From: Natrinema mahii
Lineage (GTDB): Archaea > Halobacteriota > Halobacteria > Halobacteriales > Natrialbaceae
Direction: 5' to 3'
Assembly (NCBI GenBank): GCA_000690595.2
Contig: JHUT02000001.1
Location: forward strand, 620,001 to 684,000
Length of the DNA: 64,000 nt
A model generated the notes under the pieces. The model was not told the origin of the DNA, made no database searches, and saw only the letters and a list, made by a program, of their open reading frames with translations. Positions 3,822 to 6,461 of the stretch are shown here, piece by piece (position 1 is the first letter of the stretch; the number at the start of each line of letters is the position of its first letter). Position numbers and translations under genes: made by a program.

Positions 3822-4220
3822 TTAGAACGGCGGGCCAGGCGGGAACCCGTCATCGCTTTCATTGAAGCTAATGTCAATCGCGATTTCGTTCTCGGCATCG
3901 TTGTCGGCGTAGTTGACCGAAGCCGTGGTCACGTTCTCGACATCGGCGTTATTAGCCTGATCGACATCCTGATTTTGGAACGAGGTCGCCTCAGCGTAGC
4001 TCTTGTCCGAGCTGCTGAATGCCAACGTATTCTGGGTCTGTGCGTTGTCGTTACCCTGGTCGACGCTTATCTGAGTCGTCGCGTTCGAGTCCTGATCGTT
4101 ATCGACTTGGGGATTGAGAACGTCGATATCGGGCTGTGCTGCCGCTGTTCCGGCGAACCCCAAGAAAGCGAGGCTGCCGACCAGTGCTACCGTCAGTGCG
4201 AGCGTGAGTGCGCGTTTCAT
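3822..4220 (-). CDS. Small secreted Gln/Asn-rich single-repeat protein
   Basis: The product is 132 residues from ATG 4220 (MKRALTLALTVALVGSLAF); a GTG twelve bases upstream at 4232 is also possible. There is a clear Sec signal peptide ending near GTAAAQ. The mature part has one copy of the pattern found five times in the large protein encoded divergently at 4899: ISVDQGNDNAQTQNTLAF, then SYAEATSFQNQDVDQANN, with Gln and Asn alternating with other residues. There is no cysteine and no lipobox. Function is unknown. The alternating Q/N pattern suggests beta strands stacked by side-chain amide ladders, as in curli-like proteins. By analogy with the CsgB/CsgA pair it could be a nucleator or partner of the large repeat protein, but that is inference. 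Confidence 0.75.
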   Translation of the reverse strand: MKRALTLALTVALVGSLAFLGFAGTAAAQPDIDVLNPQVDNDQDSNATTQISVDQGNDNAQTQNTLAFSSSDKSYAEATSFQNQDVDQANNADVENVTTASVNYADNDAENEIAIDISFNESDDGFPPGPPF

Positions 4221-4898
4221 TGGTTCGGTCACCGTGTGTGGGCACCACGCGTCGCCACACCGGGGAGACTCTCGAGGGGGGATCCCTCGAGCGACAGCGC
4301 TGTCGCTGGTGGCGAATGCGGCTGTCGTCTCCCGGTCGCTCCCCGCTGTGGCGCGTTGCCCAGTCGCTACTCATCACGGGGACCCATTTGAATCCGGCAA
4401 ACGGTTTCGAGCCGAATAGCGGTATTAGAGAACCTGATACGGCTATTTATGCGGCCAAGGTGGCCGTTCAGCGACCGTAACCAACAACGTGTCGTCGTTT
4501 CGACGACCCTATTCGGACTTCCCTCTGCGTTTCGAGGACGGGATTCCGCGCCCCCGTTGCCGAAATCCGCAGTGTGAAACGGTTGTTGATCCGTTTCGCG
4601 GCGCTAATACCCGCATTCGATCGCTGAAACGATCAGTAAGCCGATCAATGGCGCGCCAAAGAATTCCTCAATTTTCATTTTCAGTCGAGCGGCGAGAAAT
4701 ACGCCCAGACAGGTTCGAGCAAGACGGTTCGGTGAACCGAAGCCGCCGATTTCTCCCCGTAAGTAGCCCCCTTCGATCCCATAGGCGGTTTCATACTCCG
4801 GCCAACCTGTCGATAACAAAGTCTGTAATGGGAGAACGGGGGTTTGCGTCGCACAGTTGCAGAAACGAAAGACAATCACGACGGATATCAAACACTCA
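4221..4898. other. Divergent intergenic region rich in hairpins
   Basis: These 678 bases separate the two divergent Gln/Asn-rich secreted protein genes. No convincing gene was found. The region contains TATTTAT at 4444-4450, followed by three perfect inverted repeats: CGGCCA-AGG-TGGCCG (4452-4466), GTCGTCG-TTT-CGACGAC (4491-4507) and GAAACGG with CCGTTTC (4576-4597). It is less GC-rich than its neighbours in places (for example around 4660-4685). The likely roles are shared regulatory DNA or long untranslated leaders; a small RNA starting near 4475 is also possible. Confidence 0.55.
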
Positions 4899-6461
4899 AT
4901 GACAACCGATACGACGAGACGATCACGAGCTACGACGATTCTTATGGCCTGTATGCTGGCCTTGTCGATGGTAGCGGCCGTCCCGGCGGCTACCGCAGGC
5001 GGGGACGCCGCGTCCAACAGCGACACGGTCCACACGCTCGAGGACGGCGACGAGCTGTATCTGGTCTTCGGCGCGGATCTTGGCGATATGTCCCTCGAGG
5101 AGTACGTCGAGCAACACGCGGACGGGACGAGTAGTTCGGCCGCCGAAGTCATCCAGCACCAGGATGTCGATCAGGTCAACATCAACGAACAGGGATCGGC
5201 AGTCTCGGTCTCGATCGACGGCGGGCAGGCGACGGCCGTCCAGGAGGCCAACCAGCAGAACGACAACGTCCAGACCGGTGAGGCCACGGCCGGCAACGTC
5301 GACGTTCAGAGCGCGGAGACGCAGTTCGAGAACGTCGGCACGGTCAACATCATCATGGGGAACGGCGGCGACCAGCAGTTCGACGGCTGGGGCGTCAAAG
5401 ACGAGAAGGGTGACGACGAGACGGTCACGCAGGAAGCCATCGCCGGCGTGACCCAGTCCCAGACGGTCGGCCAGGTCAACTACAACAACCAGAGTACCGC
5501 GTTCGCGTACGCCATGAACGACAGCGAGGCGACCGCGCTCCAGCAGTCCTACCAGCGTAACGAGAACCTCCAGGAGGGCATGGCCAACGCCTCGAACGTC
5601 TACCTCGGTGACGGCGAGTTCGGGCACGCGAAGGACAAGTCCGGCGACGACGGTCCCAGTGTCGGCCAGAGTGCCGAAGCGCTGGTAAACCAGTCCCAAG
5701 ATGTCGCTCAGGAGAACGTCAACGAACAGGGCGGTGCGGTCGCCATCGCGTTCGGCGAGAACAGCACTGCCACGGCGATTCAGTTCACCGACCAGAGCAA
5801 CCTCAACGAGCAGTTCGGTAGCGCAACCGCCTCGAACCTGATGGTCTCGTCCCTCGGGATGAACGTCGCGACCGCCGGCGATGTCGACGGCGACGTCCTC
5901 TCGACCACGACTGACGCACACAAGCCTGACAAGAAGGACAAGGTAGACGGCGTCGACGACACCGAACAGACCGCGACCGCAGGCATCGCCCAAGAGCAGG
6001 CGGTCGAACAGCAGAACATCAACTTCCAGAACACCGCGATGGCGCTCGCGGAGAACGGAAGCGAGGCCACGGCGATCCAGCTCGCCTACCAGCAGAACTA
6101 CAACGCACAGGTCGCCTACGCCGACGCGCTCAACGTCTACGCGAGCCCCGGCTACGTCTCCGACGACGTCACTCGGACCTCGAGTACGACCGTCACGGTC
6201 GACGGGAACGCGGGCATGGCCCCCGGCACGTCGTACGACTACGCCGGGAACGCCACGCAGACGAACGACGTCGAACAGCAGGCCAGCGCGGCGGTCGCCC
6301 AGCAACAGATCGTCACACAGCAGAACCTGAACGAGCAACACAGCTCCATCGCGGTCGCCGAAGACGGCGGCAGCGCCGGGAGTTCACAGATCAGCATGCA
6401 GGAGAACGAGAACGTCCAGCTCACGTCGGTCGCCTCGACGAACACCTGGGTCGGCGCGTAA
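4899..6461 (+). CDS. Secreted protein with five Gln/Asn-rich beta-type repeats (candidate amyloid/curli-like)
   Basis: The product is 520 residues. ATG 4899 is chosen because it leads into a signal peptide (ATTILMACMLALSMVAAVPA, cut near ATAGG); an upstream in-frame ATG at 4857 would add 14 polar residues. The mature protein carries five units of about 57 residues, with a consensus of Q-x-Q-x-V-x-Q-x-N-x-N-x-Q, then alternating Ala, then S-x-A-T-A-[IVL]-Q-x3-Q-x-N-x-N-x-Q and an A-x-A-x-N-V end. Examples are QSQTVGQVNYNNQ and QEQAVEQQNINFQ. Units 1 to 2 and 3 to 4 are each spaced exactly 100 residues apart, joined by acidic linkers. There are no cysteines outside the signal peptide, no C-terminal anchor and no PGF motif. 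The alternation suggests stacked beta strands or a solenoid with Q/N ladders, resembling curlin repeats in style but not in the exact motif. The family is not recognised with certainty. The divergent 3822-4220 gene encodes a one-repeat relative. Confidence 0.85.
   Translation: MTTDTTRRSRATTILMACMLALSMVAAVPAATAGGDAASNSDTVHTLEDGDELYLVFGADLGDMSLEEYVEQHADGTSSSAAEVIQHQDVDQVNINEQGSAVSVSIDGGQATAVQEANQQNDNVQTGEATAGNVDVQSAETQFENVGTVNIIMGNGGDQQFDGWGVKDEKGDDETVTQEAIAGVTQSQTVGQVNYNNQSTAFAYAMNDSEATALQQSYQRNENLQEGMANASNVYLGDGEFGHAKDKSGDDGPSVGQSAEALVNQSQDVAQENVNEQGGAVAIAFGENSTATAIQFTDQSNLNEQFGSATASNLMVSSLGMNVATAGDVDGDVLSTTTDAHKPDKKDKVDGVDDTEQTATAGIAQEQAVEQQNINFQNTAMALAENGSEATAIQLAYQQNYNAQVAYADALNVYASPGYVSDDVTRTSSTTVTVDGNAGMAPGTSYDYAGNATQTNDVEQQASAAVAQQQIVTQQNLNEQHSSIAVAEDGGSAGSSQISMQENENVQLTSVASTNTWVGA
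5139..5306 (+). repeat. Gln/Asn-rich protein repeat unit 1 of 5
   Basis: It encodes AAEVIQHQDVDQVNINEQ through GEATAGNVDV. It contains both halves of the consensus, Q-x-Q-x-V-x-Q-x-N-x-N and ATAVQ-x3-QQN-x-N. It is followed by a linker of about 40 residues that includes GNGGDQQFDGWG. Confidence 0.85.
5436..5606 (+). repeat. Gln/Asn-rich protein repeat unit 2 of 5
   Basis: It encodes AIAGVTQSQTVGQVNYNNQ through ANASNVYL. Its first Gln lies exactly 100 residues after the matching Gln of unit 1. The second half reads EATALQQSYQRNENLQ. Confidence 0.85.
5673..5846 (+). repeat. Gln/Asn-rich protein repeat unit 3 of 5
   Basis: It encodes AEALVNQSQDVAQENVNEQ through ATASNLMV. The second half reads TATAIQFTDQSNLNEQ. 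It is followed by an acidic and lysine-rich linker (KPDKKDK). Confidence 0.85.
5973..6143 (+). repeat. Gln/Asn-rich protein repeat unit 4 of 5
   Basis: It encodes ATAGIAQEQAVEQQNINFQ through ADALNVYA. It lies exactly 100 residues after unit 3. The second half reads EATAIQLAYQQNYNAQ. Confidence 0.85.
6282..6452 (+). repeat. Gln/Asn-rich protein repeat unit 5 of 5
   Basis: It encodes ASAAVAQQQIVTQQNLNEQ through STNTWV, ending four codons (including the stop) before the end of the gene. Its second half is the most divergent (QISMQENENVQ). Confidence 0.8.

Follow-up and report, generated by a model that had tools for sequence, protein, structure and literature searches.

We have analysed a 64,000-nt stretch of the Natrinema mahii genome, referred to below as the window, and observed that it encodes a large secreted protein with five Gln/Asn-rich units and, divergently from it, a small secreted protein. 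The small one-unit partners make the large protein half of a two-part system. The sequence-only reading of this DNA missed the small partner (3822-4232, minus strand), and the pairing of the divergent small-partner gene with the large gene as a module is new in this analysis. Tentatively, and at somewhat less than an even chance, we favour a two-part extracellular beta-repeat assembly, in which the five-unit protein would serve as template and the one-unit proteins as extension subunits. The features referred to below are as follows.

3822..4220, minus strand: small divergent partner of 132 aa, counted from ATG 4220 (the frame stays open as far as GTG 4232), with relatives at the same divergent place
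4340..4402, minus strand: noncoding block preceding the small gene, the second of two that are conserved
4808..4829, plus strand: noncoding block TGTCGATAACAAAGTCTGTAAT preceding the large gene, conserved as judged from ortholog comparison
4899..6461, plus strand: large five-unit secreted Q/N-repeat protein, 520 aa, the ORF kept in 56 of 100 relatives
4899..4997, plus strand: signal-like N-terminus, approximately residues 1-33, from sequence (basic start, hydrophobic core, AATA-GG), kept in orthologs
5025..5126, plus strand: family-specific N-terminal segment LYLVFGADLGDxSLEEYVE, residues 43-76, from sequence comparison
5130..5306, plus strand: unit 1, residues 78-136
5424..5603, plus strand: unit 2, residues 176-235
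5661..5843, plus strand: unit 3, residues 255-315
5964..6143, plus strand: unit 4, residues 356-415
6273..6452, plus strand: unit 5, residues 459-518

The large protein and its alternating units

The open reading frame for the large protein extends in the window from the ATG at 4899 to the TAA at 6459-6461, which gives 520 aa, and the choice of ATG 4899 as start is backed by the ortholog alignment and by upstream in-frame stops in some orthologs. That the protein is secreted by way of a signal peptide had been claimed earlier, and the signal-like N-terminal sequence, which is kept in orthologs, supports this; the LYLVFGADLGDxSLEEYVE segment that follows is present in 60 relatives and is limited to the large-protein family. 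The closest named relative is N. thermotolerans, whose large protein is 96% identical. Gln and Asn together make up 26.8% of the units, compared with 3.4% in six neighbouring genes. Searches of the large protein against Pfam, NCBIfam and PHROGs gave no match, and the sequence-only reading had likewise not recognised the exact repeat; PDB sequence searches with the full-length and unit profiles gave weak chance matches only (PhoQ, for example), and a literature search, from which subscription journals were mostly absent, yielded no paper on the family. In a divergent subgroup of large proteins (L066-L072) the C-terminus is lysine-rich (KKDKKGKK-like), which is unusual for a haloarchaeal secreted protein.

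Each of the five units spans approximately 58-61 residues, and linkers of approximately 20-40 residues lie between them. The core motif Q-x-Q-x-V-x-Q-x-N-x-N occurs at residues 86, 186, 265, 365 and 468, so that the spacing is exactly 100 residues for units 1-2 and 3-4, with remaining gaps of 79 and 103; unit starts and core-motif positions thus agree with the earlier description of five units of about 57 residues, two pairs of them exactly 100 residues apart. These repeats are far above chance. The best ungapped self-alignment of the protein scored 162, whereas none of 50 shuffles exceeded 61; QxNx[NHS]xQ occurred 10 times (shuffle mean 0.09, maximum 2, n=2000) and QxQx[VIA]xQxN 5 times (shuffle mean 0.012, maximum 1). 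Most genomes that have the large protein contain exactly 5 unit matches, and in this sense the unit count is fixed.

Every unit is composed of two half-units, giving ten long alternating segments in the protein. Half A reads A-x-V-x-Q-x-Q-x-V-x-Q-x-N-x-N-x-Q, followed by a short parity break and a turn, and half B reads S-x-A-x-A-x-Q-x3-Q-x-N-x-N-x-Q-x-G-x-A-x-A-x-N. The sequence-only reading had noted that Gln, Asn and Ala alternate with other residues, and we observed that evolution preserves this alternation strictly: among 62 distinct orthologs, the autocorrelation of column entropy within units was -0.45 at lag 1 and +0.65 at lag 2, and the alternation lasted to lag 12, as compared with 0.00 (sd 0.058) for permuted units. 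The linkers are themselves conserved in the ortholog alignment, and alternation of conservation was looked for in them across the same 62 orthologs and was not seen. The conserved unit positions are 44% Q/N and 41% A/G/S/T and include no K/R; the variable positions accommodate charge and more hydrophobics. A strand that is extended and has one of its faces buried would be predicted to show alternating conservation of this kind, and the evidence for it comes from evolution, independently of fold prediction.

Small divergent partners and their joint inheritance with the large gene

The window's small partner gene lies approximately 0.6 kb upstream of the large gene and is transcribed divergently; its product, a secreted Q/N protein, has a 28-residue signal peptide followed by two half-motifs in the order B-A. 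At least 50 of 74 locus records contained divergent small partners; some genomes are represented by two records, and the figure is an under-count, since the strict pattern used missed some true partners. In relatives, the partners carry approximately one unit and occur at many loci in one to three tandem copies, and in the L073 genome three or more small partner relatives are clustered at a separate place. The first 28 residues of the 56 partners form an almost invariant signal peptide, MKRALTLxLTVALIGSLxFMGFAGTAAA, which is far more conserved than the mature part.

When the mature parts were scored with the unit profile, 20 of 55 reached 15 bits, a score that was not attained by any of approximately 1,100 shuffles or by any of 55 reversed controls; the best partner scored 53 bits, against maxima of 7.4 for shuffles and 14.6 for reversed controls. 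The partners fall into two groups by half-motif order, A-B and B-A. The partner encoded in the window matches the unit weakly, scoring 3.5 bits with the normal profile and 12.3 bits with a permuted unit profile, the latter value being above all shuffles (9.1 or less) and below the best reversed control (13.1); we therefore count it as a family member mainly by its place, its signal peptide and its closer relatives. Sub-threshold family-library matches of the partners (DUF4307, PFF1_TM and others) look like chance and were set aside. In two partners (L073:6058-6603 and L074:3191-3613) the signal peptide and the unit are separated by long low-complexity stretches rich in His, Asp and Lys, which are possibly metal-binding.

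The large protein is a Natrialbaceae protein, found in 55 of 74 sampled genomes of that family and rarely elsewhere. The unit profile matched 58 of 292 genomes of the class (55 of the 58 being Natrialbaceae), and in a phylum-wide sample it matched in Natrialbaceae only. Among the Natrialbaceae, a strong partner match was present in 51 of the 55 genomes that have the large gene, four being without one, and in none of the 19 that lack it (Fisher p = 4e-14, a value that ignores shared descent). Joint absence recurs inside genera g5, g11, g28 and g29, which otherwise have both genes. Relatives of the large gene also occur on plasmids of Haladaptatus, Halomicrococcus, Natronorubrum and others. On the Haladaptatus plasmid, a large-gene relative (39% identity) has different neighbours and still has two one-unit partners on the opposite strand, from which we conclude that the pair travels as a module; the plasmid partners scored 58, 55 and 31 bits with the unit profile. 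A clear match to the unit is also given by Haloterrigena partners (L038). The flanking genes, which recur in approximately half of the loci, differ on this plasmid and are thus probably not part of the system.

Nine of 62 large proteins (L054, L055, L056, L041, L059 and L062-L065) have, after an acidic or charged spacer, a C-terminal PGF-CTERM tail, as in surface proteins processed by archaeosortase A; 0 of 56 partners have one. One ortholog matched Pfam PF18204 (PGF-CTERM) at E 2e-4, and NCBI annotates two plasmid relatives as PGF-CTERM. In the window's large protein the signal (PF18204) was looked for and is absent, as it is from most orthologs, so that anchoring was gained or lost within the family. 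The tail on large proteins, with none on partners, links the family with the cell surface and points, as judged from sequence, to the large protein as the base of the system.

Within the block at 4808-4829, GATAACAAAG is nearly invariant in 20 orthologs, across genera, and the block is probably a leader or regulatory element. Even when up to 3 mismatches are allowed, the genome contains it only once, and it is not a genome-wide regulon signal. An Rfam search near the large and small genes returned nothing.

Predicted fold and comparison with known fibre proteins

AlphaFold2, supplied with a 13-sequence alignment, predicted that each of the five units forms paired strands of approximately 18-24 residues, where pLDDT was approximately 55-76; for the model overall, the mean pLDDT was 50 and the pTM 0.50. 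Without the alignment the prediction was mostly helix (pLDDT 39) and of no use. CsgA models usually reach pLDDT of approximately 83 (PMC10192328), so that the fold predicted here for the large protein is tentative. A Foldseek search of 350,542 chains gave no significant match (best E 0.79); its top three rows, CsgA and two FapC entries, lie below significance (E 0.8-1.5, TM 0.05-0.07). VIA-align likewise gave no significant fold, with SufB beta-helices at Z 4.7, CsgA at Z 3.2, and a cell adhesion protein and an S-layer protein among its low-Z rows. As neither program found a significant fold, the missing of a named fold says nothing, and the modelling results are compatible with stacked strands and with nothing beyond that. 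Of the earlier proposal that the units form stacked beta strands, for which an AlphaFold prediction had been suggested as a check, the paired long strands were thus predicted in all five units, but their stacking into a solenoid was of low confidence and found no significant fold match.

The large protein is not a curlin, since profile, motif and exporter tests all failed. The PF07012 curlin profile matched neither the large protein nor its own genome at E up to 10, with a positive E. coli control. The curlin repeat motif N-x-psi-x-psi-x-Q (PMC10192328) and QxGxxN occurred 0 and 1 times in the large protein, as in shuffled sequence, so the earlier remark that the repeat differs from the curlin motif holds. 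The absence of a Csg-type exporter nearby, also noted earlier, extends to the whole genome, in which PF03783 (CsgG) had no match at E up to 10. Curli CsgA/CsgB do resemble the present system in being secreted, in having five paired-strand units with inward Q/N (as predicted here) and in using related subunits with different roles; yet the curlin repeat is approximately 23 residues long and tightly packed, whereas the unit described here is approximately 57-60 residues, with long linkers and no CsgG. In a previous curli survey, just one archaeal protein was noted to have repeats like those of curli (PMC3521004).

The functional amyloid proteins FapC/FapB of Pseudomonas also have few long repeats with linkers between them, and FapC supplied the second and third Foldseek rows at E ~1, below significance; no FapC chain was among the PDB profile matches of the large protein, and the present host presumably has no outer membrane for a FapF-type exporter. 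With the Caulobacter holdfast anchor proteins HfaA/HfaD, of which HfaA is amyloid-like and forms multimers that depend on HfaD (PMC6707917), the link is a weak NCBIfam HfaD match of the small partner (E 0.0043), whose 16.4 bits fall below the NF037936 cut-off of 100; no HfaB/CsgG homolog was found in the genome. The sheath protein SH of Methanospirillum hungatei is likewise archaeal and extracellular and has a proposed beta-arch assembly; that sheath is built from an amyloid-like beta-arch protein (PMC10593813), to which the present analysis showed no sequence relation.

A candidate surface assembly and its alternatives

In the two-part assembly that we favour, the large protein would be exported, presumably by Sec, and once outside the cell its five units would fold up as a stack of long strands, in which Gln, Asn and small residues form a ladder on the inner face. 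The small proteins of about one unit would then join the stack at its open edge, or pile on one another. On this view the large protein would be the template or base, and the small ones would be the subunits that lengthen a fibre or matrix element serving in surface attachment or biofilm. The PGF-CTERM tail would, in some species, let archaeosortase fix the base to the surface; large proteins without the tail would be released or held otherwise. The route of export, the binding of the partners, the fibre itself and its part in biofilm are our inferences. It is possible, and rather less probable than the general two-part assembly, that the system is a separately evolved archaeal analogue of curli, that is, a polar Q/N-ladder fibre with one-unit subunits on a five-unit, sometimes sortase-anchored template, formed by cells that have neither an outer membrane nor an exporter dedicated to it. 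As proposed, the assembly resembles curli in logic (related subunits, Q/N ladders) and may work like it, without being a curlin.

The linkers of 20-40 residues, unlike the tightly packed curlin repeats, are evidence against the two-part assembly, as are the weak match of the window's own partner and the four genomes that have the large gene and no strong partner. The main rival to the fibre model is a non-polymerising surface or matrix protein, in which the five units form a rigid intramolecular beta-repeat stalk or adhesin and the partners are caps, competitors or independent adhesins. The fixed number of five units, the conserved linkers, the nine anchored orthologs and the low-Z adhesion and S-layer rows in VIA-align all favour such a stalk, but most orthologs have no anchor, and one-unit partners that occur in tandem, each bearing a signal peptide, resemble polymerising subunits; on balance we consider it unlikely, though a serious contender. 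The units might instead bind polysaccharide or stay largely disordered, the protein being a low-complexity, sticky or hydrated matrix polymer with no fixed fold. The low overall AlphaFold2 confidence and the strongly uncharged units would fit this, but strict two-residue alternation over 60 residues is unexpected in a disordered chain, and we regard the idea as improbable.

Haloarchaea already possess an S-layer glycoprotein of their own, which argues against a sheath- or S-layer-like envelope component that would enclose the cell in an unbroken beta-arch layer like the sheath of Methanospirillum hungatei. The gene is also missing in approximately a quarter of Natrialbaceae genomes and plasmid-borne in others, unlike what would be expected of an essential layer, so that this is the least probable of the readings, even though a beta-arch amyloid-like archaeal envelope exists (PMC10593813) and the large protein is exported and sometimes anchored.

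The two-part fibre or matrix assembly, if it is correct, bears on the biofilms of this group. Those of Haloferax volcanii bind Congo red and thioflavin T, and only a putative amyloid was reported for them (PMC4180959). Haloarchaeal biofilms take amyloid dyes, and the module described here offers named, testable candidate genes in a related family. If fibres do form, Q/N-ladder fibres would be possible with a strongly polar core, in saturated salt and without the curli export machinery.
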